Below are positions 9,922-23,333 of a stretch of 24,854 nt of DNA, piece after piece. The translations under genes and the position numbers were made by a program. A model generated the notes under the pieces. That model had not been told where the DNA came from. It saw only the letters and a program-made list of their open reading frames with translations, and searched no databases. Source of the DNA: a virus. Where the stretch lies: IMG/VR virus record IMGVR_UViG_3300008050_000297, positions 1 through 24,854 of that record; one strand, written 5' to 3'. The first letter of the stretch is position 1, and each line of letters begins with the position of its first letter.

Positions 9922-12467
9922 TGTCAACTAGAGTGCCAGCAGATAAGACCTACTTCACCTTTAACAAGGGACTATTCACAGAAGCCTCTGAGTTGACGTA
10001 TCCTGATGAGGTCTCCTTGGATGAGGAGAACTATGAGTTGCTGGTCGATGGCTCACGTAGGCGTAGGCGAGGGCTTAACAAAGAAATTACTGGAGTAGAA
10101 CACACACTCACAGATGCAGTGGCAAGCACTGACCAAGTAACGACCTACAAGTGGCGCAATGTAGCCCGTAATCCTGCTATAATATTCCTAGTTGTACAGG
10201 TGGGATATAGTCTACATCTATACAGAGATGGGGATGTAGTCAGTGCAGGCAAGGTTGCCGAGATTATAGACTTAGGTGGGTACTCAACTACAGGAAGCTC
10301 CGATGGGGTCAGTGACCACAAGATGAGCATTACATCAGGTAGAGGACACTTGTTTGTGAGTGGCAAGCATCTACCACCCATATACATACAATATGATGAA
10401 GCCACTGCTTCCTTCACTCCTACTATAATTGAGCTACAAGTTCGTGAGTTTGAGGATGTAGTTGATGGTATAGCAATGGATGCCACTCCCGGTGACACTG
10501 AAATACCTAATTCTCATAGATGGAACCTAACCAATAGAGGTTGGACATTTGATACAGATGCAGCTAAGGCAGTTTCGGGGACTTATGTAGGAACCGCCAA
10601 TGACTACATGAACGACCAAGGACATTGGCCTTCCAAGAACCAACTGCCTAGTTATGGCTTTGAGACAATAGACCATTCAGCCGGAGACCAGACAGAAACA
10701 AGAGGGTGGTTTGATCTAGGAGCAGTAGACAAGAAGTGGAACTCATCTAAGTTAGCATCTCAAATCTTTGGGTTAGCGAGTGCTCCTAAAGGCTCTTTAA
10801 TAGTAAACCCCTTTGACACTACACAGGCTATAGCACCTAACAGCGGTATAACTATACCAATAGAAACGTGGGAAGTAGACCCAGCACAGGACAAGACAGC
10901 CACACCTTGGATAGTTAAGGTGACTACGTCTGCTCCACACGGCTTCACAACGGGAGCAACGAATAGTGAATTTTGCCACATAACAGGCAACCTACATAAG
11001 TATAAGTTTTCTGGCAAACCCAGTGGGTCTTATAGTGGGTATGTAACAGAGAGCCTAGGCTCAGACAACGAAAACCCTGAGCGTGGTAGCGGCACATGGA
11101 TTTCACTTGAAGTTCAGAATGGCCCACTAGGAGCAGGGCTAGAGCCTATCACTACCACTGAGTTTTGGATAGAAGACCCCAAACTATATTATACCCAATA
11201 TTGGCATAGTTGGAATAATCAGTACATCACATTAGGTAGCGTCCACACTAAGATTGAAGAGAATGATGCTGGTGTAGTGACTGATATAAGACCCTCTACC
11301 ATAGAGTTCTATGCAGGTCGTATGTTCTATTCAGGTGTTAATACGGATAGATGGGCAGACGGTATATTCTTTTCTAAAGTTGCCACAAACGCCACCGACT
11401 ATGGGCACTGCTTACAAGCAGCAGACCCTACCCATCCTCTGCTTAATTCACTAGTAGCAGACGATGGTGGGTACATACAGATACCCGGAGTGGGAGAGAT
11501 AACTGCGCTGCAAACATTTGAGAATAGCCTACTGGTCTTTGGTAACACAGGGGTGTGGGAGATTAGAGGCTCAAACTACTTTGCTGCTGATGATATTATA
11601 GTGCGTAAGATATCGGATGTGGAGGGAATTAGCTCTGCGGGTGTAGTTCTCACAGATGACTCAGTTTTGTTCACCTCCTACAGAGGTATATACAGCATAC
11701 AGATAGACCCCCGCTCTGGGCAGTTGGTTGTAACAAGTTTAACTGAGAGCAGTATACAATCCTACTGGAACTCTCTGTCCACTTCTCAAATGGCAGCGGC
11801 TGAGGTTATACATGACGAGGTTAAGAAGCGCATTCTAGTTCTGTATAGTACAAATTCAGTGCCCAATCAATTTGATACAATCCTAATCATAGACTTGCGA
11901 CTAGGAGCCTTCTATAAATATACATTTACAACGGACAGTGACTCCTACATACTAGGGGCTATGTCTACTGACTCTTCTACACAAATGGATGAGTATAGGA
12001 AGATCAAGTTCTTTGTGTTGGAGGATTCCACAACTTTATCTGTGGCAGACTTTGGGCAAGAAAGGGTGTGGGCAGATTGGAGTGGAGAGGAGAAGATACC
12101 CTACGTTATCACTGGGTATGATAACCTAGGAGATTTCCAGAGAGTGAGACATGCTCCTATAATACACACATACCTCAAGAACACTGAGGTGACACCGGGA
12201 GATAGCTCCACTCTAATGCAAGCCCACTGGAACTGGACTAGTGACACTATGGCAGGTAAGTGGAGTCCAGTTCAACAGATATTCAGACTATCACGAATGT
12301 TTATACCTACAACTGAAACAGACTTAGGGGCGTATCCAGTTATACATGCACGGTCTAAGATTAGAGGTAATGGCAAAGCCCTAAGTATGAAGTTCTATGG
12401 TGAGGAAGGGAAGGACTCTCACATCTTAGGTTGGGCAATACATTACCAAGGCAATTCGGAGGTCTGA
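9921..12467 (+). CDS. Tail tubular protein B-like (tail nozzle)
   Basis: An 848-residue protein corresponding in place and size to T7 gp12 (about 794), which forms the hexameric nozzle and holds the fibres. The N-terminus, TYFTFNKGLFTEASELTYPD, and the nearby NYELLVDGSRRRRRGLNKE, are the hallmark start of this family. Further conserved blocks are PSTIEFYAGRMFYSG, EITALQTFENSLLVFGNTGV and SVLFTSYRGIYSIQ, which are beta-propeller-like strands. Later comes KKRILVLYSTNS with IIDLRLGAFYKY. The gene shares one base with the preceding stop (TAATG), and its own stop overlaps the next ATG. It is the most confidently placed tail gene here. Confidence 0.88.
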   Translation: MSTRVPADKTYFTFNKGLFTEASELTYPDEVSLDEENYELLVDGSRRRRRGLNKEITGVEHTLTDAVASTDQVTTYKWRNVARNPAIIFLVVQVGYSLHLYRDGDVVSAGKVAEIIDLGGYSTTGSSDGVSDHKMSITSGRGHLFVSGKHLPPIYIQYDEATASFTPTIIELQVREFEDVVDGIAMDATPGDTEIPNSHRWNLTNRGWTFDTDAAKAVSGTYVGTANDYMNDQGHWPSKNQLPSYGFETIDHSAGDQTETRGWFDLGAVDKKWNSSKLASQIFGLASAPKGSLIVNPFDTTQAIAPNSGITIPIETWEVDPAQDKTATPWIVKVTTSAPHGFTTGATNSEFCHITGNLHKYKFSGKPSGSYSGYVTESLGSDNENPERGSGTWISLEVQNGPLGAGLEPITTTEFWIEDPKLYYTQYWHSWNNQYITLGSVHTKIEENDAGVVTDIRPSTIEFYAGRMFYSGVNTDRWADGIFFSKVATNATDYGHCLQAADPTHPLLNSLVADDGGYIQIPGVGEITALQTFENSLLVFGNTGVWEIRGSNYFAADDIIVRKISDVEGISSAGVVLTDDSVLFTSYRGIYSIQIDPRSGQLVVTSLTESSIQSYWNSLSTSQMAAAEVIHDEVKKRILVLYSTNSVPNQFDTILIIDLRLGAFYKYTFTTDSDSYILGAMSTDSSTQMDEYRKIKFFVLEDSTTLSVADFGQERVWADWSGEEKIPYVITGYDNLGDFQRVRHAPIIHTYLKNTEVTPGDSSTLMQAHWNWTSDTMAGKWSPVQQIFRLSRMFIPTTETDLGAYPVIHARSKIRGNGKALSMKFYGEEGKDSHILGWAIHYQGNSEV

Positions 12468-13141
12468 TGGGCATTACAGGCAGAACAGCAGCTAAAAAAG
12501 CTAGGCGTATAGCAACGTATCTCAAGAAGGTTGATGACTATCAACGGCAAGCGGCAGCCCTAAGGCAAGCACGGGCAGCATATTCAGGTGTAAACGCTGC
12601 CACACACACTATCACAGGGTTGGGCACAGAGTCTAGTGGACAGCAAGGTGTACTTGCATCTATTAATACACAGGCCGGATACAATCTAACTATGGCTAGG
12701 CATACAGGACAACAGTATGACAAGATGCTTAGCCATCAGCGTAGAGCTAAGAAAGCTGCTAGTAAGTTCGGCCTAGCTGTGAAGGCAGTCGCAGTAGCGG
12801 CTGCTGTGTGGACGGCTGGTACATCGTTGGCAGCAGCTAATGTAGCAGCTGGTGCAGGAGCTGGTGCAGCAGCTGGTGCAGGAGCTGGTGCAGCAGCTAG
12901 TGCAGGAGCTGGTGCAGCTTTAACTACGGGGCAGCAATTGAGTCTGTTTGCTAGTTCTTTTTCTGATACTTTTGCTATTGCTAATACGGTAGGGGGGGTT
13001 GCTACAGGAGCTATGTCAGGGCAAGTTGGAGACGAAAACATAGCCACACAGGGATACGCTGCTGGCTATAGACCTTACAGGGATTATATACAAGGCTCAA
13101 ACTTATTAGATCAACATGTTAGAAACAGAAACAGCGTATAG
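12467..13141 (+). CDS. Small internal virion protein (T7 gp14-like candidate) with Gly/Ala hydrophobic repeat
   Basis: A 224-residue protein that probably rides in the capsid core and is ejected to form part of an envelope channel, by analogy with T7 gp14 (196). An in-frame ATG exists at 12431, but ATG at 12467 is preferred: GGAGG at 12458-12462 precedes it and it overlaps the tubular B stop by one base. Residues about 1-50 are basic and helical (AAKKARRIATYLKKVDDYQR). From about residue 102 a hydrophobic run (GLAVKAVAVAAAVWTAGT) merges into an Ala/Gly block with a DNA repeat and a further hydrophobic stretch (SLFASSFSDTFAIANTVGGV). The tail is short and polar. Function is inferred from order and membrane-like sequence. 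Confidence 0.75.
   Translation: MGITGRTAAKKARRIATYLKKVDDYQRQAAALRQARAAYSGVNAATHTITGLGTESSGQQGVLASINTQAGYNLTMARHTGQQYDKMLSHQRRAKKAASKFGLAVKAVAVAAAVWTAGTSLAAANVAAGAGAGAAAGAGAGAAASAGAGAALTTGQQLSLFASSFSDTFAIANTVGGVATGAMSGQVGDENIATQGYAAGYRPYRDYIQGSNLLDQHVRNRNSV
12842..12913 (+). repeat. Three tandem 24-bp units coding Gly/Ala octapeptides
   Basis: Three head-to-tail, nearly identical 24-base units lie in frame inside the small internal virion protein. They encode VAAGAGAG, AAAGAGAG and AAASAGAG, and the units differ only at the first codon (GTA versus GCA) and by one GGT-to-AGT change. The block extends the hydrophobic segment of the protein, so copy number would set its length. Confidence 0.85.
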
Positions 13142-16100
13142 GTCACTAATGCAAGAACAAATAAAATTAGTACGAGAAGAGCCACAGGTTCAGGACACCA
13201 TCCGTCCTAATGAACGCACAGCCACTAGTTTTGCTATGGCAGTATCTAGTGCCTTGGGAATGCCTGAACAAGAGGGGCAGATACGAGACCTGTACATGGC
13301 AACAGGGTCTCAAGGTAAGTGGGAACAGGCTAAACACCTGTACAACCAGCTAAGCAACGAAACTGCTAGGCAACAGGTTGTTAAGAATGTAATAACCAAG
13401 GCTCAGATTATGGGACTAGACCCCGCTGCTACGCTACAGGGTGGTGAAGTCCTCAAAGAGGAGGCCGCAGTAGCTAGGCACAACTTAGAGCTAACTAAAG
13501 CGTCCCCTGAAGCCTCAGCCTATGTCCATTCTCTCTTGACAACCCCAAGGGAACCTGCCATAGATGACGAAGACCAAGAACAACGGGAAAAGTGGCCTAA
13601 AGAAGCGCACTTGGAACGTCACTATGCTGAAGCAGAGGAACGAGAAGCAGAAATACAGGCTATTCTAGCAGAGAAAGCTAGTGATGGCTTTGCGGCAGGG
13701 TCATGGATGGAGGCGGGGGCAGGTATGCTTGGCTACTTTACCCCTATTGAGACAGCATTGGCTAATGAAGTTTACTTTAGGATGAGAGACCTCTTTGAGA
13801 ACTACCATCCTGCCCTGACGGGTCAAATAACCTCTACTATGGAAGAGTACTATGGTATGCTACCCCCAGCAGAACAGCGGGTGTTTGAGGAACGGTTGAT
13901 ACAGACCATCCAAGACTCCCCCACAGGGTTCTTTGACTTCATTAACCAAGGTCTCTTCGATCAGATTGTTAACCCAGAGAGTAGGCTAGGTGCTACAGAG
14001 GAGAATGAATTCAATCATATCCTATCAAACGTAGGTAGCGTCTTTGACATTTTTATGCTTGGTGGTTTTTTTAAGTTTATTAAGGCGGGGTTGCGAAGTT
14101 CCGCTACTCCCGCAGCTAAAATCACTTTACAGGTAGACAAAGAGACTGCAACGAACCAGTTGGCTGAGATTGTAGCTGACCCTACCTCTCCTATTGCTAC
14201 AGGGTGGGGAGTGTCTCGTGAACAAGTGGTCCGTACACAACTACCCGGCTATGGTAAGATGGATGATATCATAGAGGACGTACCAGAGGAGTTGCTAGAG
14301 GAGGCAGAACGTATTGCCATCTTAAGGGAGCAAACAGGAGAGCTGCTAGACCGCACCCGTGGTGCAGCTCTAACTCCAGTTGACCGTATAAACGCTGTGG
14401 AACGAGAAGCTAGGCAGATAGAACAGGCGCAAGGTGGTAAACTCCGTGTTGGCATGTCTCGCATTACTATGCATGAAGGTGGACATGGTGTACGATACAC
14501 CGCTGTGTTAGGTAAGAATGAGAAGTATGGCTTTAGGTCTGAAAGAACTGCCTTTGAAGAGGCCGAAGACCTGATAGCACAGGGCTTTAGGGTTCGGATT
14601 AAGATATCAGACAACAAACAACTACACGGCTACCTCACAGGAGAGGAAGCTATGGAGGATTTAGCCCTAATACGACAAGCTAACTCAGGTAGGAAGTCAC
14701 AACGTGGTAACTTCTACGTTGAGTATGACTTTGACTACAAGTTCAGAGCCACGGACAAGGGTCTCTTCGGAGATAACCCCGTTACGTCCCCTGAGTTCCT
14801 TGGTCGTAGTGCTAGAACCTTACAAACACCATCAGCACAGTTCTCTCGTGAGGTGTATGAGCCTTTCCTATTTAACCAGAATGCAGAGCAAGCCCTCACA
14901 TCCAAACTAGATAGTATTGTAGCTCCCATTTTCCGTATGAGCAATAGCTCTAGGCGCACGATTGATGACATGTACTCCTATACGGAAGACTTTGCCCGTA
15001 AGAATGGCCGAGCACCTACCCAAAGTGACTATACCCGTTCATTCCCAGATGCAGGGCCAGATGAGTTTAAGGGTATATTCCTTGCACGTAAGTATTACGA
15101 CACAATCTATGACATACAGAACGAAAGGTTATATAGAGACTGGAATGGGCGCGGGTTTGTCACAATACGAGACAAGACAGGCTCAACAGCCTATCATGGC
15201 AAACCTCTTAACAATGCAGAGTTGGGACAGAAGTACGAAGGTGGATTACTTAGCGTCTTAGAGCCTTCAACAGGCAAGATTCTACGTTTAAGCCGGAAAG
15301 AAGTGGACGAGTTGTATACAAGTAGAGGTTCAATCCTAGAGACTGAGCTGCCTATTACAGTAGACAAGAACACACGGTCAACTCTAGTCCTTAGTGACCC
15401 CAATCAGAAAGCTTGGGAGTTAACACCTTTAAGTCAGTATCCTCTTAAGTACATCGAGGGGTACTTTCCCCGTGTGTACCAAGATAAGTACTTTATCCGC
15501 AAGGTTATGCCTAATGCCATAGTGAACGGTGCAGTTAAACAGCACACACAGGTGGTATCAGTGGCAGGTACTAGGGAAGAGGCTGAGAAGTTTGCACGTA
15601 GGATGAAAGAGCAGGATAGTGCTAACGATTATGTCATAGCTGACCAGAACATGACAGTTAAAGACCGGGTAGCGGCTGATCTAGAGCAGCTACAGGTAGA
15701 GGGAAGGTTGTTCTTTGATGAACGGCAGCAGAAACAGCTATATAATGTGCAGCGTAACAAGGCCGATATAGTCTCTCCCACCAATATGATGCAAAGAACC
15801 TCTCGTATGGTGGCTAGACAGGTGTCTATGGAGGACTTGGTAAAGGAATACAAGACAGGGTGGGATGCAATGTATGGGGACATGGTTCCCGGCATTGACC
15901 GTACCCGTAGCTCCGGTGTTCGTGGTGCTCTCAACAACATTATAGAGAGTGGCACTAAGGAAGAGAAGGCGCGAGCTGTTAAAGCTCACCAGATGTGGGA
16001 TTACATCTCGTTGATGGAAGGTAACATAGCAGGTAGTTCCCAATGGTTCCGACAACGGGCAGTTGTCTCAGCAGAGTGGCTGCACGAGAAGCTTAGCAAG

Positions 16101-17996
16101 GTTCCCGGTGTGTCAAGAGTAACTACTTGGGGCAACCGTAACGCATCTAAGATCAGTCCCATTGAGAACATGAAACACCTAGCCTTTATTGACTTCATTG
16201 TCACTAGACCTTTTAGGCAGCTACTCTTACAGGGTGCTCAACACTTCTTCTTAGGCGCGTTAGACCCTCTATACATGGGCAAGTGGCAAACGGACTCATT
16301 CCTCCTATTACAGGGACAGAAGAAACAGGCAGCATATCTCGCTGGTGGTCGAAAGGTGTCCAAGAAAATGGCACAACGTAATGCTAAGCTGATGGGTGTT
16401 ACCCCTGAAGAGTATGCAATCATGCTTAAGGAGCTTGACTTGGCTGGGAACGTGCAGTCAGTGAATGTACACTCCTTGGCTGGAGATACAGTAGCCCTAC
16501 GTACCACACCAGAGTCTGTGATGGGTGATGTTGTTCAAAAAGTGGGGCGTACCCTTACGGGTGCTCCTGTACGTGCGGGGCTACAGAAGTATGGCTTCGA
16601 CTTAGGTGAGCAGTACAACATAACGGCCTCTTGGTTGATGGCTAAGCGTAGATACATGAAAGAGAACAACATCGAGTCTATAGCTGCTATGACAAAGGAC
16701 GATTGGAGGGCTGTTGCTGTCAAGGGCAGTGACTATGGCATGGCTATGAACCGCGCTAACTCAGCTTCCTTCCAGTACGGCGTTTTTAGCCTACCAACAC
16801 AGTTCTTACAATTTACACACAAGACATTCTTAACGATGTTACGTGGGGGTGTGCCTGTGCCCTTTGCAGACAAAATTCCCGGCATTAAGAATATAGATAA
16901 GGCTATGTCTTCTGCGGGTAACAAGGGTTTCACTAGAGAAGAGGCACGTAAGATTCTAGTAGGACAGGCAGTTCTATTCGGTGGCGCAGGCTTTGGGTTT
17001 AAACCAGAGGTTGAACGGCTCCTGTTAGAGGCTGGCTTTGACCAGTATATAGGCACAGAGGGCGTTGACTTGATAGCAGGTGGCTTGTTAGACTATGCAG
17101 TAGACACAGCCCTACAGAGAGCCTTAGATGACCCAGACTTAGACCTTATGGTAGGTGAGTTCCTTGCTCCGGGTGCTAATATCCTTAATACGATGCGACA
17201 CTTCGTTGAGATGGGAACTGAACTGCCCGTAAGTGAGGCATTCTTTGGAGCCTTTGGCGCAACAGCCACTAGGTTCGGTGAGTCCTTTAAGATGGGCAGA
17301 TTTATCATAAACAATGACCCTGATATGCCAATGCTAGACAAGGTTGGGATATCTATGGACTACATAGCACGAGGTGGTCTATCAGGTTACAACGACTTTG
17401 TCAAGGCACGGTATGCATACAACTCAGGTAAGTGGTTAAGCTCAGATGGCAGAGATTCTGACCTAGAGGCTAAGACTGCTGAGGTGTGGGCTAGGGGCTT
17501 GTTAGGACTACGATCAGAGCACCAGAATACGTCATGGCGACTGTGGGAATCCGCTAAAGATCGTGATACAATGATTAAGGACACTGCTAGGGAGTACGCC
17601 AACCAAACCAACACCTATATTAAGGAGTGGGTAGATGGCAACGACACCCTTGAGGGAATGCGTAACAAGATACTAGGTGCTAAGACTATGCTACAGGTAG
17701 CTTTAGACCCTGAAGATTACACACAGGCTATGGAGGAGTACAATCGTATCCAAGGCTCATATGAAGATCAACGTAGGTCTGCTTCTTACATGATAGCCAA
17801 AGGTATGTCAGAGGGCAAGACTACAGAAGAGTATCTCTTTGACCTAGTTAAGCAGATGCCCGGTACAGATCAAGACCGACAAGCTTTAGAGGTCTTGCTT
17901 AGAGAGCAGATTAGGGACGTAGACTTTGCAAGTGAAGAAACACAAGAATCCTTACAACGACAGATAGATATAATAGAGAGAGCAAGAAATAAATGA
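13116..17996 (+). CDS. Very large internal virion / DNA ejection protein (1626 residues)
   Basis: The largest gene in the window, placed where T7-type phages carry the big ejection proteins (T7 gp16 is 1318). The N-terminal half is charged and helical. A hydrophobic segment, VGSVFDIFMLGGFFKFIKAG, lies at about 307-326, with others near 1226-1250 (FLQFTHKTFLTMLRGGVPVP) and 1269-1290 (ILVGQAVLFGGAGFGF), possible envelope-contact helices. LKYIEGYFPRVYQDKYFI (about 776-793) resembles linkers seen in large phage polyvalent proteins. I see no transglycosylase motif. An HEGGH occurs at 453-457 (see findings). ATG at 13116 overlaps the preceding gene by 26 bases without a good ribosome site; ATG at 13149 follows a weak TAGG by 6 bases and is an equally likely start. 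The stop overlaps the next ATG (ATGA). Confidence 0.8.
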   Translation: MLETETAYRSLMQEQIKLVREEPQVQDTIRPNERTATSFAMAVSSALGMPEQEGQIRDLYMATGSQGKWEQAKHLYNQLSNETARQQVVKNVITKAQIMGLDPAATLQGGEVLKEEAAVARHNLELTKASPEASAYVHSLLTTPREPAIDDEDQEQREKWPKEAHLERHYAEAEEREAEIQAILAEKASDGFAAGSWMEAGAGMLGYFTPIETALANEVYFRMRDLFENYHPALTGQITSTMEEYYGMLPPAEQRVFEERLIQTIQDSPTGFFDFINQGLFDQIVNPESRLGATEENEFNHILSNVGSVFDIFMLGGFFKFIKAGLRSSATPAAKITLQVDKETATNQLAEIVADPTSPIATGWGVSREQVVRTQLPGYGKMDDIIEDVPEELLEEAERIAILREQTGELLDRTRGAALTPVDRINAVEREARQIEQAQGGKLRVGMSRITMHEGGHGVRYTAVLGKNEKYGFRSERTAFEEAEDLIAQGFRVRIKISDNKQLHGYLTGEEAMEDLALIRQANSGRKSQRGNFYVEYDFDYKFRATDKGLFGDNPVTSPEFLGRSARTLQTPSAQFSREVYEPFLFNQNAEQALTSKLDSIVAPIFRMSNSSRRTIDDMYSYTEDFARKNGRAPTQSDYTRSFPDAGPDEFKGIFLARKYYDTIYDIQNERLYRDWNGRGFVTIRDKTGSTAYHGKPLNNAELGQKYEGGLLSVLEPSTGKILRLSRKEVDELYTSRGSILETELPITVDKNTRSTLVLSDPNQKAWELTPLSQYPLKYIEGYFPRVYQDKYFIRKVMPNAIVNGAVKQHTQVVSVAGTREEAEKFARRMKEQDSANDYVIADQNMTVKDRVAADLEQLQVEGRLFFDERQQKQLYNVQRNKADIVSPTNMMQRTSRMVARQVSMEDLVKEYKTGWDAMYGDMVPGIDRTRSSGVRGALNNIIESGTKEEKARAVKAHQMWDYISLMEGNIAGSSQWFRQRAVVSAEWLHEKLSKVPGVSRVTTWGNRNASKISPIENMKHLAFIDFIVTRPFRQLLLQGAQHFFLGALDPLYMGKWQTDSFLLLQGQKKQAAYLAGGRKVSKKMAQRNAKLMGVTPEEYAIMLKELDLAGNVQSVNVHSLAGDTVALRTTPESVMGDVVQKVGRTLTGAPVRAGLQKYGFDLGEQYNITASWLMAKRRYMKENNIESIAAMTKDDWRAVAVKGSDYGMAMNRANSASFQYGVFSLPTQFLQFTHKTFLTMLRGGVPVPFADKIPGIKNIDKAMSSAGNKGFTREEARKILVGQAVLFGGAGFGFKPEVERLLLEAGFDQYIGTEGVDLIAGGLLDYAVDTALQRALDDPDLDLMVGEFLAPGANILNTMRHFVEMGTELPVSEAFFGAFGATATRFGESFKMGRFIINNDPDMPMLDKVGISMDYIARGGLSGYNDFVKARYAYNSGKWLSSDGRDSDLEAKTAEVWARGLLGLRSEHQNTSWRLWESAKDRDTMIKDTAREYANQTNTYIKEWVDGNDTLEGMRNKILGAKTMLQVALDPEDYTQAMEEYNRIQGSYEDQRRSASYMIAKGMSEGKTTEEYLFDLVKQMPGTDQDRQALEVLLREQIRDVDFASEETQESLQRQIDIIERARNK

Positions 17997-20146
17997 GTGT
18001 CAAGAACCCAGAATTAACAGAGCCTAAAGTACAACGGGCTGATGACCTTATAGCAGATGCCTCCATTGATATTATGGCTATTGACAGTGCGTTGAATCTA
18101 GTAGGCGCTGCTGCGGAGGGAGTAGATAAATATGTAGACAGGAAGGTGGCGAAGGATACCCTAAGTGAACTACAAGAGCAAGCAGCTACTAGTTTAGACG
18201 AAATTTTAACTGAGAAGGAAAAGGGAGAACGTAGTGGCATGGACGCTTCGGGTGTGCGAGGTCTACAGAAGGCCGCTACGCAAGCTATCAGTACAGGTAA
18301 GCGTGGCATTGGCTATGAGGTTAAGATTAACACCATCTTAAATGAACAGATTAGGAGGTATCCCGGTAGATCAGATATAATCTTAGGTGTGGGTAGGGGG
18401 TTTATGTCTACTGATAGTGTAGCTTTAGCTATAACACAGTATGAGGCTACTCAGGCAGAAGAAACGGCTTCCGCACAGAGAAGAATTGATAGGATGCTTA
18501 AAATAGGAACAGCTTTAGGAGTGTCAACCAAGAAGTGGGATGAAGGAGACTTTGATGGTTACTACGAAGATCAACTAGCGGCACAGGCTAATGTACAAAA
18601 TTCTAAAGATCATAGACAGAAGGCAGAGGTGCTGTCTGCTGAGGGCGCATACAATGCAGAAATCTTTAATAGGGACTTTAAGAAAGTACTACCTGATGAG
18701 ATGCAATTACTCAAGCCAGCTCTAGATGCATACATGTTAGAGACCTTTGGGGTATCCACTGATGACCTCCACCAAATAGCTACGTCTGGTAAAGTTGATA
18801 TGGACGAGGTTAAGTTGGGTGTGGAGAACTGGTACTATGCAATGTACCGACCGCAGGAGGTAAATGTTTGGGAAAAAGCGGCAGGTTATTCCCTACCCCC
18901 CGGCACAGTAGACACCGCCTTTGCTCCAATGGATCAGCACTTTGAACGGATAAACAAACAGCTAGGAGCAACTGAGAGTGCTGAACGCAGTGACTCACTT
19001 TACAGGCTAGCTGCCAACTCCGCTGTGTTCAGCATTCCGGGTGGCCCTGAGGCTGATGGCTTTCTAAAGGTTACTCAACGGATGGGAGACTCGGCATGGT
19101 CTCAAGCTCTATCTAATATTCCCAAGGACGTTCTGCTAGAGGGGGCACTCGCGTATTTCGGTGGGTTGACCAAGGGTGGCGTACCAAACCCACCTCCGCC
19201 TGATGGGGCTTCAGGTTCAGAGACCCCAGCTCCGCCTACAATAACTAAGGCAACGGAGGTGGACTTCGATAAAGCAGCCGCAGAGCTAGGCATGACAAAA
19301 CAACAGCAAGAAGCTTTTGCTATTGGCTTAGCAGATGCCTTCAGGATCGAGATGAACTCACCAGACTATCGCCCAGAGGAAACAGCGGCTGCTGTCGTCC
19401 GGTACGTGGATGCATGGTCTAAGAACTATAAACGTAAGGCTAATCTGGGTGAGATAGAGTCTTACAAGGTGAGTGATGCATTACTTGGCATACTGGCTGA
19501 CGAAAAGTATCTTGAAGTCAAGACAATCTTTGAAGAGACTGTACTGAAGGAGATAGGGTTAAATCTTAATGACGTTATAAGCTTAGAAGCCAAGTACTGG
19601 ACAGATGTAGCTACCTCTACATGGATAGAGGAGAGCCTCAATCGTAGGGCAGAGGCAGGACTATTGAACCGAAACCGAATACAGGGTGGCTTCTTTGGTC
19701 TTAAGGATGTTAAGCGTGTTGACATACGAAACCCCTCAGAGCCTCTTAGGGTGCACGGACCAGCATCTGTCGCTGGTCCAAATGATGTGATGAACATGTA
19801 TGAACCACAGAGTGGCAAGCTAGTCAGTAGACAGATGTTTGATAACCCTGAGGCCTATATAGAATACAGCAGGCTTGTTGAACTACAAGTCAATGAGAAT
19901 GGTATGCTTAGGTGGCAACCTGTACAACCACAGATTGTGGGATTAACTGAGTTCGCTAAAGATGAACAGTTCATGTTAGAGGATATCTCCAAAGAGTTGA
20001 ATGAAATTGGTGGCAAACGTATGGATAATTGGGTGAAAGCCAAGGCTCACCAAGACGGTATTCCGTACGCCATTGCAGCAGAGGAAATTCGGTATGGTGT
20101 TGTCGGTAGGCTTGACTACCGCAGAGATGCAGGATTAGGACGGTAA
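17993..20146 (+). CDS. Internal virion / ejection protein (717 residues)
   Basis: A long, soluble, mostly helical protein comparable in length to T7 gp15 (747), sitting between two other ejection-type genes and coupled to both: ATGA at its start and one shared base (TAATG) at its end. The N-terminus (SIDIMAIDSALNLVGAAAEG, then YVDRKVAKDTLSELQEQAAT) is helical and amphipathic. The middle has repeated long helices (YEATQAEETASAQRRIDRML). A Pro-rich linker, GVPNPPPPDGASGSETPAPP (about 397-416), separates it from a second helical half. No catalytic motif or membrane helix is evident. The role as a core or ejection protein is inferred from order, length and composition. Confidence 0.72.
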   Translation: MSVKNPELTEPKVQRADDLIADASIDIMAIDSALNLVGAAAEGVDKYVDRKVAKDTLSELQEQAATSLDEILTEKEKGERSGMDASGVRGLQKAATQAISTGKRGIGYEVKINTILNEQIRRYPGRSDIILGVGRGFMSTDSVALAITQYEATQAEETASAQRRIDRMLKIGTALGVSTKKWDEGDFDGYYEDQLAAQANVQNSKDHRQKAEVLSAEGAYNAEIFNRDFKKVLPDEMQLLKPALDAYMLETFGVSTDDLHQIATSGKVDMDEVKLGVENWYYAMYRPQEVNVWEKAAGYSLPPGTVDTAFAPMDQHFERINKQLGATESAERSDSLYRLAANSAVFSIPGGPEADGFLKVTQRMGDSAWSQALSNIPKDVLLEGALAYFGGLTKGGVPNPPPPDGASGSETPAPPTITKATEVDFDKAAAELGMTKQQQEAFAIGLADAFRIEMNSPDYRPEETAAAVVRYVDAWSKNYKRKANLGEIESYKVSDALLGILADEKYLEVKTIFEETVLKEIGLNLNDVISLEAKYWTDVATSTWIEESLNRRAEAGLLNRNRIQGGFFGLKDVKRVDIRNPSEPLRVHGPASVAGPNDVMNMYEPQSGKLVSRQMFDNPEAYIEYSRLVELQVNENGMLRWQPVQPQIVGLTEFAKDEQFMLEDISKELNEIGGKRMDNWVKAKAHQDGIPYAIAAEEIRYGVVGRLDYRRDAGLGR

Positions 20147-22464
20147 TGTCACTAGTATCAAAGGTCATAGCTAAACAGGCAGACGAGATTAAGCCCCGTA
20201 AAGTAGCTGTGCGGAATGGCAGGACCACGGAGAAAGCAGATAATATCCTAGCTAGCTCCTCCTATAGTTTGTACACTTCCAGTGCACAGAAGAACTACCT
20301 TGCTAGGACTACCCCTGATGCCAATGGCTTTAGTTTCCAGATGGGTAGTGTGATAGACCCCAATAGCCTTAATCTAGGTGACATAAGGAATGTGCCTGAT
20401 GTAGAAAACCGGGTAAGACGGGAGATGAATAGCATAAAGGGCGGCTATCATGGGGAGATACAGTCTTTAACTGGCAAGGTTGGAGAAGATGGACGATTTG
20501 CCTTTGATGAGTTAACTGAGCGACAGCGTGTACATGTACAAGCACAGATACTACTTGGCAACAAGCGTATGCCCGTAGGTCTGGGGATGACGGATGGCAC
20601 TAGGTTTAATCCAGACAGTGTAGTGCCCCGTAGTTACATGAACAATGGAAGAGTGGAGTATCTAGAGAGTACCGCAAACAACGCCTCTGTGCTATCCTCG
20701 GACCTCCGTAAAGGGGAGTTTGACCTCCCTTCCTTATATGACACCCCCTATAGGGATGATGAGGTTGGCAGCGTAGTAGACATGATGCTCAGTGATGAGG
20801 TTATGGCATCTCACATGACTGAGAGTATGCACAATCCTGCTATGGCAGGGCGTATAGTGGAGGATGGGCAAGACCTATCCATAACACAGTCATGGAGAAA
20901 CCTACAAGCAGAGGGATATACGCCATCGAAGAAGGACTTAGCAGATGTTAGAGGACAGAAGAAGCTATCACTAGGTGTTGATGACGCTGTGTGGGATGAG
21001 GTTGGTGGAGCTAGGGCTGAATCCTTCAGAGGTAACAAGGATAACCTAGTCACACGTAGGCACTATGGTGCTACGGATGAGTACGCCGATATGCCTATGA
21101 TTGCGTATCGGACTGATGTATCACCAGTGCTTAAGGATGGGAAGACCGTAGCAGAAGCTAACCCCTTAGAGATGGGTGATAGTTACGGAGATGGGGCAGT
21201 CTTCAGGTTCTTCACAGGTAAGGACGCACCCATACCAGACAAATCAGAGGGCATACTTAAGATGTCTGAGAGGTATGGTGACAAGCAGAAGCTAGCTGAC
21301 ACCTTACAGAACTTCCTGATAGACAACGTGGAGTCCATAGACGAGCTAACTGCGGCAACAGGGGAGCTAGTAGACCTTAGTAAGTCGAAGCTCACCAAGG
21401 GACAGCAGAGCAAGCTAGTGAAGGTGTTAGAGAAGGAGTTTCCTGACGTACCCAGACCCATACAAGGGGCTGTAGCACGGCAGTTTGTTAGCGGTATCAA
21501 CAAAAACATATCTCGTACTACTACAGCCAGAGTACTCACACCTAAGAAACCTTTAATGGTTTATGATGAGTTTGGCTTTGAACCCGAGGCTGTGATAGAA
21601 CAGCTACTTGGTAGGGAAGAGTTTGTTAATCAGCGTGGTAGGTTAGAGGAGTTAAGTTCGGCTCTTAAAGCTACCTCCACAGAAGCTGACCCCTTGTATA
21701 GACAGAATGTAGACGAAGTCTGGGACATGATAGAAGATGCCGGGTATGACCCTATACTAATGCATGTTAACACCGCTGAGCCTAGCAATGGGCTTAGGCA
21801 GGGTGGTGCTATGTCCTACGTTATACGTGGTGGCAGAGCAGACGATGTATCTACTAAGGTATTCAGGACTCAGGAAGAATCCAGTGCCAAGCTTAGAGAT
21901 GGTACTTGGACTAGAGCTATGGTAGGCGTAGGCACAGCAGCAGGTGGTGCATCTTTAGTGCCGGAAGAAGCTAAAGCAGAGAAGCCTAAAGTCTTTAGAG
22001 GCAAGGCAGCTATCAAACGAATTGAGAAGGATGAAGGAACTCTTAATGCGATAGAACGTAGAGTAGCAGTAGAGGAAGGGTATGTAGAAGGTGAGTACCT
22101 AGACAGCGAGGGAATTGTAACGTCTGGTGCTGGACAGACCGGAGAGTTTCGAGGGATGCCATTTAAAGAAGTCGTAGAGATTCATAAGGATAGAGTACGC
22201 AAGGCTATCCCCTCCTATGACAACCTACCTGAGTATCTTAAAGAAGAGTTTGTACAGTCTATGTACCGAGGAGACATAAGACTAAGCCCCACAGCAGTTG
22301 GGCTGTTCAACGAGAGAGAGTATGAGGCAGCAGCTATTGAATTTTTAAACCATGAAGAGTATAGGACAACAGACGAAACGGGCATACGTAAGCGGATCAA
22401 ATCCGTATCAGATGCTATGAGAAAGTATGGCAAGGAAGTCAATAAGGACAATAATAATGAGTAA
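20146..22464 (+). CDS. Ejection-type protein with C-terminal GH24 (T4-type) muramidase domain
   Basis: A 772-residue modular protein. Residues 1-290 are of unknown fold. About 300-575 resembles the ART-like part of large polyvalent phage proteins: RRHYGATDEY, GAVFRFF, KKPLMVYDEFGF, then EDAGYDPILMHVN and SYVIRGG. A short Gly/Ala stretch near 592-606 (VGVGTAAGGASLVP) leads into a lysozyme domain, about 620-765. There EEGYVEGEYLDSEGIVTSGA places E644, D653 and T659 at exactly the 9 and 6 residue steps of T4 lysozyme E11, D20 and T26; the rest (AVGLFNEREYEAAAIEFLNH, then RKRIKSVSDAMRKYG) follows the family. It should cleave peptidoglycan during DNA entry. It ends beside the lysis genes, so a role in release is also possible. 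Confidence 0.85.
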   Translation: MSLVSKVIAKQADEIKPRKVAVRNGRTTEKADNILASSSYSLYTSSAQKNYLARTTPDANGFSFQMGSVIDPNSLNLGDIRNVPDVENRVRREMNSIKGGYHGEIQSLTGKVGEDGRFAFDELTERQRVHVQAQILLGNKRMPVGLGMTDGTRFNPDSVVPRSYMNNGRVEYLESTANNASVLSSDLRKGEFDLPSLYDTPYRDDEVGSVVDMMLSDEVMASHMTESMHNPAMAGRIVEDGQDLSITQSWRNLQAEGYTPSKKDLADVRGQKKLSLGVDDAVWDEVGGARAESFRGNKDNLVTRRHYGATDEYADMPMIAYRTDVSPVLKDGKTVAEANPLEMGDSYGDGAVFRFFTGKDAPIPDKSEGILKMSERYGDKQKLADTLQNFLIDNVESIDELTAATGELVDLSKSKLTKGQQSKLVKVLEKEFPDVPRPIQGAVARQFVSGINKNISRTTTARVLTPKKPLMVYDEFGFEPEAVIEQLLGREEFVNQRGRLEELSSALKATSTEADPLYRQNVDEVWDMIEDAGYDPILMHVNTAEPSNGLRQGGAMSYVIRGGRADDVSTKVFRTQEESSAKLRDGTWTRAMVGVGTAAGGASLVPEEAKAEKPKVFRGKAAIKRIEKDEGTLNAIERRVAVEEGYVEGEYLDSEGIVTSGAGQTGEFRGMPFKEVVEIHKDRVRKAIPSYDNLPEYLKEEFVQSMYRGDIRLSPTAVGLFNEREYEAAAIEFLNHEEYRTTDETGIRKRIKSVSDAMRKYGKEVNKDNNNE

Positions 22465-22720
22465 GCCTGTGACCAGAGATGATCTATACCTTGAGATTAA
22501 GTCCGTTAGGCAGGATATTGAAGAACTAAAGGCACAGAATCTTAAGGAACATAAGGAAACTAACAAGCTGGTAGCAGAGAATAAGTCTGATATAGAGGAC
22601 ATATTGAAGTGGATAGCTAAGTCTAAGGGGTTTCTAGGTGGGATAACGCTCATGCTAGGGGCTTTCTGGGCAATCTTAGTGTTCTTAAAAAGTGCGATCC
22701 TAAAACTTATGGAACTGTAG
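22457..22720 (+). CDS. Coiled-coil plus C-terminal membrane helix protein, XhlA/holin-accessory type
   Basis: The preferred start is ATG at 22457 (87 residues), with AAGGA 8 bases upstream; an in-frame ATG at 22427 lies deeper inside the preceding gene and lacks this. The N-terminal 55 residues form a charged coiled coil (YLEIKSVRQDIEELKAQNLK, then LVAENKSDIEDILKWIAKS), and residues about 62-83 form one membrane helix (GGITLMLGAFWAILVFLKSA) with a short tail. This layout is that of XhlA-type proteins (coiled coil then single TM) found beside holins. It is first in the lysis cassette and overlaps the muramidase gene by 8 bases. A holin, or a regulator of one, is likely; which is not decidable by eye. 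Confidence 0.72.
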   Translation: MSKPVTRDDLYLEIKSVRQDIEELKAQNLKEHKETNKLVAENKSDIEDILKWIAKSKGFLGGITLMLGAFWAILVFLKSAILKLMEL

Positions 22721-22722
22721 GC

Positions 22723-22848
22723 ATGGCAATAGAAAGACGTAATATATGGGTAGCTCTAGGGCTTGCTATAGTCTTAGGTAGCCTGATTATCACAGGATAT
22801 CTAGAAGGAAATGCAATACTGGTTGTAGTGGGGATACTAGGTGGGTAA
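22723..22848 (+). CDS. 41-residue protein with two hydrophobic segments, holin candidate
   Basis: A very short gene easily missed by length-limited gene finders. ATG at 22723 lies two bases after the previous stop, and its last 8 bases overlap the GTG start of the i-spanin gene. After a basic N-terminus (MAIERRN), residues about 8-27 are hydrophobic (IWVALGLAIVLGSLIITGYL). A short polar turn (EGN) is followed by AILVVVGILGG, giving a helical hairpin or a single helix plus an amphipathic end. The basic N-terminus and location inside a lysis cassette fit a small holin or pinholin-type protein. A ribosome site is not obvious, so translation probably depends on coupling to the gene before it. Confidence 0.6.
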   Translation: MAIERRNIWVALGLAIVLGSLIITGYLEGNAILVVVGILGG

Positions 22849-23143
22849 AATAACCACATGGTGGGAATCCACTGATGCCTCCTATACTATGCTGAGTATT
22901 ATAATTGTACTACTAACAATACTGTGGTTTAATTCTACTAAACAGGCTAGTATAGCAGAGGAGAAGGCGGAAGCCGCTGTTGTGGTGATACACGAGAACA
23001 ATGAGTCTGCTCTTAAGTGGACTGAGAGACTACGTAGAGATGATAATGCCCTACTTAGATTTGACTACCGACTAGAGGAATACCCAAATGATGCGGAATG
23101 TCTTGATAAGCCTTATCCTGCTGACTACCCTAATGGGTTGTGA
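22841..23143 (+). CDS. i-spanin (Rz-like), GTG start
   Basis: A 100-residue protein for the inner-membrane half of the spanin complex that fuses the two membranes in the last step of lysis. It starts with GTG at 22841, with GGGGA (22830-22834) 6 bases upstream. Residues about 14-30 are the N-terminal membrane anchor (SYTMLSIIIVLLTILWF), followed by a periplasmic helix (ASIAEEKAEAAVVVIHENNE) and a charged end with one cysteine (DAECLDKPYP). Its 3' 56 bases encode the start of the o-spanin in another frame, the overlapped Rz/Rz1 arrangement. Membrane topology and this overlap make the call good although sequence identity to lambda Rz is not visible. Confidence 0.82.
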   Translation: MGKITTWWESTDASYTMLSIIIVLLTILWFNSTKQASIAEEKAEAAVVVIHENNESALKWTERLRRDDNALLRFDYRLEEYPNDAECLDKPYPADYPNGL

Positions 23144-23333
23144 TGCCCTAACTAGAACTGAATACGATTACTACCCCATACCAGCTATCTTGTTGCAGGA
23201 ATGTGATCTACCCCCTAAGCCTAACACTCCCCGTGAAGCAACACGCAGTGAGGCACACGCCCGTGTGTGTGTAGAGCAGGGCAATGCAGCTAAGAGTGAG
23301 ATTAAAGATAAGATAGCGGGAGGTGTATGGTGA
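23088..23333 (+). CDS. o-spanin lipoprotein (Rz1-like)
   Basis: An 81-residue lipoprotein expected on the outer membrane, paired with the i-spanin. The signal peptide runs from MMRNVLISLILLTT to the lipobox LMGC, making C18 the lipidated residue and leaving 64 residues. The mature part is Pro-rich (YPIPAILLQECDLPPKPNTP) with further cysteines, a pattern common to Rz1-type proteins, and ends in a charged helix. GAGGAA at 23075-23080 precedes ATG by 7 bases (a second ATG follows directly). It begins inside the i-spanin gene, and its stop overlaps the next gene by 7 bases. Asp follows the lipidated cysteine, which is unusual for outer-membrane sorting (see findings). Confidence 0.85.
   Translation: MMRNVLISLILLTTLMGCDALTRTEYDYYPIPAILLQECDLPPKPNTPREATRSEAHARVCVEQGNAAKSEIKDKIAGGVW

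Follow-up and report, generated by a model that had tools for sequence, protein, structure and literature searches.

A divergent GH24-type muramidase domain predicted at the C-terminus of a putative podovirus ejection protein

Why does a marine-type podovirus carry a predicted lysozyme at the end of a large protein encoded beside its ejection genes, and at what stage of infection would this enzyme act? We address this question for a 772-aa protein of IMG/VR virus record IMGVR_UViG_3300008050_000297. The window, which is the stretch of DNA that we analyzed, is the whole of this record (24,854 bases; a 24.9-kb fragment). A nucleotide search of 50,697 phage records returned no relative of it. Its gene order is of the podovirus type, with roles assigned by similarity and position: tail spike, terminase, portal, scaffold, capsid, and tail tube A and B, followed by proteins of 236, 1626, 717, and 772 aa, two small membrane proteins, an i-spanin, and an o-spanin. 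The tail-tube proteins and the 1626-aa protein are related to Zobellviridae counterparts. Judged by this similarity, the upstream genes are a Zobellviridae-type tail tube and large internal virion protein (IVP).

The window features given below with coordinates lie on the plus strand. The 236-aa protein (12431..13141) is a putative gp14-like small ejection protein, as suggested by its position and a match to phrog_8168 (E 4e-6; function unknown). The 1626-aa protein (13116..17996) is a large IVP in the IVP-D/gp16 slot. Its tblastn matches span 58 phage records (E down to 6e-27), belonging to Zobellviridae in every record whose taxonomy was opened, and blastp detects similarity to the counterparts in Zobellviridae phage VPMCC5 (OL676770) and in L046. 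A 717-aa orphan ORF (17993..20146) is placed in the last-ejection-protein (IVP-C/gp15) slot by its position; no search returned a sequence relative, and the IVP-C profile also gave no match. On the other side of the 772-aa gene, two small membrane-protein ORFs (22427-22848) lie directly 5' of the spanin genes, and one of them may be a holin. The first is a holin-like ORF of 97 aa (22427..22720) with a coiled coil and, from hydropathy, one C-terminal hydrophobic (TM) segment; it had no confident family match. The second (22723..22848) encodes 41 aa with a single TM segment and is a possible holin or antiholin from its sequence and hydropathy; a search with its first 40 residues gave no family match. 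The i-spanin (Rz-like) candidate (22841..23143) has an N-terminal TM segment, overlaps the o-spanin gene, and matches phrog_12072 at E 0.03. The o-spanin (Rz1; 23088..23333) has the lipobox LMGC and matches the Rz-like spanin family phrog_456 (E 2e-7).

The 772-aa protein is encoded by one ORF (20146..22464), with an orphan N-terminal region (residues 1 to ~610) and a GH24-like (T4-lysozyme-type) domain at residues ~616-760 (21991..22425). The initial annotation had proposed just such an in-frame C-terminal fusion, with the E-(9)-D-(6)-T spacing of T4 lysozyme at E644, D653, and T659, and both are present in the translation (22075..22122; codons 22075-22077, 22102-22104, and 22120-22122). It had placed the domain at 22021-22440 (residues 626-765). 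The domain is found there, but the N-terminal edge was about 10 residues short, as the conserved domain starts near residue 616 (~21991). Among 86 family sequences, E and D are invariant (86/86 each) and T is kept in 80, with A replacing it in the other six; the GxGQTG and YRG positions are near-invariant. Conservation also extends across the entire ~150-residue domain, and on these grounds together the motif is not due to chance.

The assignment to GH24 was first proposed from the motif, and a direct profile match of the whole protein did not bear it out: neither PF00959 (Pfam) nor NCBIfam recognized a family in it. Profile and profile-profile comparisons did. Residues 617-758 align to positions 3-149 of phrog_37474 (E 7e-35), a PHROGs family of unknown function, and tblastn with the domain matched 42 phage records. 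Scanning IMG/VR with a seven-member alignment gave 285 relatives, of which 80 were kept. The profile of the 42-member family had lysozyme 2anv as its best PDB match (E 9e-6), with many T4 lysozymes also matched. When this family was compared by hhalign with true GH24 endolysins, both lobes aligned, and the E, D, and T positions coincided (96.9%, E 1e-10). Furthermore, two relatives pass the curated PF00959 cut-off themselves: L015 and, in Vibrio phage 1.026.O (L002), the virion RNA polymerase. No match to the domain profile was detected in GTDB genome contigs, and scanning IMG/VR with the complete 772-aa protein returned no relative.

The predicted fold points the same way. An AlphaFold2 model of the domain was confident (pLDDT 96.8), and the 50 matches listed in a Foldseek search of the PDB were T4 lysozyme or T4-lysozyme fusions (probability 1.00, TM ~0.5-0.56). 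The TM score to T4 lysozyme itself was moderate (~0.55). In the model, E644 ends the helix 635-644, D653 follows the strand 646-652, and T659 lies in the strand 658-661, positions (helix end, after strand 1, in strand 2) that presumably match those of T4 lysozyme. The domain thus shares its fold, catalytic spacing, and C-terminal lobe pattern with T4 lysozyme (e/gp5) and GH24 endolysins (PF00959, e.g., PA11 gp33). However, identity to these enzymes is ~15-20%, the window copy falls below Pfam detection, and it is fused to a large orphan. We conclude that the C-terminal ~150 residues form a predicted, divergent GH24-type muramidase domain with an intact E/D/T set, whose similarity to GH24 is remote.

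Relatives of this domain are attached to ejection-type proteins in several groups of phages. A close parallel in gene position is a 782-aa protein of VPMCC5, the last large protein of its ejection module, which ends in the same domain (~42% identical); the L046 protein at this gene position does so too. In VPMCC5, the domain gene also follows a homologous ~1500-aa IVP, and the tail-tube proteins are homologous. Unlike in the window, the VPMCC5 carrier is of IVP-C type and related to that of L046, whereas the window carrier has no detectable similarity and an additional 717-aa gene lies in between. Among T7-like phages, the domain (44-47% identical) is found in Alteromonas phage H4/4 (gp39/gp40) and in the IMG/VR record L011, at the N-terminus of gp16-like proteins rather than at a C-terminus, and is followed there by an SNase-like domain. 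In L011, it begins a 1967-aa protein with a T7-gp16-like remainder. The transglycosylase part is replaced, since phrog_342 aligns only from its position 176 on. According to PMC5658483, H4/4 makes the domain both as the free endolysin gp39 and on the gp16-like gp40, through a −1 frameshift at A-AAA-AAG.

We observed this slippery heptamer in H4/4 (L001) at 12360-12366, just 5' of the gp39 stop, where it would allow both the free endolysin and the gp16-like fusion; in L011, the two parts are fused in frame. The SNase-like domain (PF00565) of H4/4 gp40 (L001 12366-12725) and L011 (8430-8789) scores 24.0 and 21.2 bits, respectively, against a cut-off of 21. It separates the muramidase from the gp16-like core and is a candidate ejected nuclease.

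Other relatives place the domain differently. In L027 and L028, it forms the C-terminus of a gp15-like protein (phrog_3883 in L027), and the gp16-like neighbor lacks it. In L061 and L064, it is a separate ORF directly 3' of a gp16-like ORF. Note that the arrangement in L027 (174-3251 and 3255-8906) is the opposite of that in H4/4 and L011, so that the module crosses a gene boundary. Among the N4-like Pontosvirinae (e.g., Vibrio phage 1.026.O), the same domain (~42% identical, and above the PF00959 cut-off) is the N-terminal part of a virion RNA polymerase of ~3,366 aa. The N4-like phage that we examined encodes a separate M15-type endolysin, and its fused copy is therefore probably not its lysis enzyme. 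Many further relatives are small stand-alone proteins, and many adjoin a ~420-aa ORF that is terminase-like in several. A quick tree of the domain needed 11 architecture changes, an exact number that long branches make unsure; the starred branches alone force at least five for the C-terminal fusion. The domain family has repeatedly become part of proteins that are ejected together with the DNA.

Lysozyme domains that move between internal virion proteins are an already published theme, of which the window is a further example. IVPs are said, in 2016 work on phage RIO-1 by Hardies et al., to be variable hosts of tail lysozyme domains. A 2022 review describes how the peptidoglycan-hydrolase domain of gp16 can swap to gp15 homologues, based on the lysozyme activity of the gp15-type gp35 of K1E/K1-5 (PMC8954989), and lysozyme domains occur on N4-type virion RNA polymerases and other injected proteins (Iyer et al. 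2017, PMC5512222). T7 gp16 and K1E/K1-5 gp35 likewise join a peptidoglycan hydrolase to an internal virion protein, the arrangement proposed for the window protein. Unlike the GH24-like, C-terminal domain of the window, the T7 enzyme is an N-terminal lytic transglycosylase. This contrast with T7, drawn in the initial annotation, holds for the window, with no SLT domain found, but not for L011 and H4/4, where the domain takes the transglycosylase position at the gp16 N-terminus. What we add is modest: the particular pairing, with a 610-residue orphan carrier at an endolysin position, and a survey of where the domain is placed on either side of the gp15/gp16 boundary.

The carrier is less easily placed. 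Residues 1-610 had no relative in a tblastn search of 50,697 phage records at E<=10, in phmmer comparisons with 24 other carrier and ejection-module proteins, or in a profile comparison with the IVP-C family. They thus match no IVP, whereas fusion to an IVP is recognizable in L011, L027, the VPMCC5-type proteins, and L002. A single-sequence structure model of residues 231-611 was uninformative (pLDDT 39) and was discarded. We also suspected, by eye only, an ADP-ribosyltransferase-like pattern at residues ~470-600; nothing supports it, and we do not claim it. When the protein was first described as ejection-type, the C-terminal muramidase fusion was correct, but the ejection role of the carrier is a less certain, weaker link that we infer for a region without relatives in an endolysin slot.

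Because ejection proteins of other phages carry relatives of the domain, our analysis leans toward delivery of the 772-aa protein with the virion. In the mechanism that we infer, for catalysis, packaging, and timing alike, the protein would be packaged together with the ejection proteins or accompany them on release. At infection, the lysozyme at its C-terminal end would make a local opening in the peptidoglycan, allowing the trans-envelope conduit and the DNA to pass. The muramidase would then do the job of the T7 gp16 lytic transglycosylase, a substitution suggested by the lack of a detectable domain of that kind in the 1626-aa protein. It may also serve host lysis, because its gene lies in the endolysin slot and we saw no second lysin in the record.

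That slot is also the main reason to consider that the domain is a lysis endolysin only, its gene joined to an upstream orphan ORF, acting late and reaching the periplasm via a holin. In the Zobellviridae phages PA11 and CVT22, a free PF00959 endolysin is encoded by the first or second gene after the last IVP. The 772-aa gene occupies the slot of PA11 gp33 and CVT22 gp17, and immediately 3' of it come the holin-like, i-spanin, and o-spanin genes, with no separate lysin between. SLT (PF01464), amidase_2, M15_3, and M15_4 had no match in the window record or in the complete VPMCC5 genome. The muramidase profile found a single copy in each, which in VPMCC5 is likewise fused. However, endolysins acting on Gram-negative hosts do not usually carry a 610-aa fusion at the N-terminus, and the 772-aa protein is a single ORF rather than a free, separately translated enzyme. 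No convincing internal start would supply one: the ATG at 21919 is preceded by only a 3-base SD-like match and the GTG at 21958 by none. Moreover, members of the ejection protein set carry relatives of the domain, and one of the phages concerned encodes its endolysin separately. An endolysin of this virus could also lie elsewhere in its genome, as the record is a 24.9-kb fragment. We consider a purely lytic role unlikely, although it is the strongest competitor of virion delivery.

Dual use, in which the virion would carry the fused muramidase for entry and the same protein would later lyse the host, has a precedent of sorts in the H4/4 gene that supplies both products by −1 frameshifting, and it would suit the one fused muramidase copy of the complete VPMCC5 genome. 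Against it, no internal-start signal was found in the window gene, and a second lysin could belong to another family: GH108 and GH19 searches were uninformative, as their controls gave no match. We rate dual use as quite improbable, below the endolysin-only role. Equally doubtful is its fullest form, in which the fused muramidase would be the only peptidoglycan hydrolase of the phage, borne on a previously unknown ejected carrier and cutting the wall at both entry and lysis; if true, one protein would replace both a gp16-type transglycosylase and a free endolysin. Finally, the domain might be an inactive lysozyme fold retained for binding or for a structural role, as the six relatives with A for T and the remote GH24 similarity might suggest, but this is very improbable given the invariant E and D, the intact T of the window protein, and the near-invariant GxGQTG and YRG positions.

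The placements of the domain have wider significance. In T7-like, N4-like, and Zobellviridae-like phages, one lysozyme module is attached to several ejection-type proteins that are unrelated to each other, at one end or the other, and it even crosses the boundary between two adjacent ejection genes. Such varied placement helps explain why the peptidoglycan-cutting step is difficult to detect with Pfam in genomes of this kind. In the window, the merging of an endolysin gene with an ejection module can also be put to the test.

Two further observations concern relatives of the domain. Stand-alone versions of ~260 aa in Zobellviridae (L004 8517-9299, L005 3826-4608, and L006 9469-10242) have a hydrophobic, signal-anchor-like start, and their catalytic T is replaced by A. 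The 1470-aa carrier in L047 (4053-8459) matches phrog_7348 'endolysin' with 1167 bits over residues 18-1074 and ends in a GH24-like domain, and may thus hold two lytic domains.
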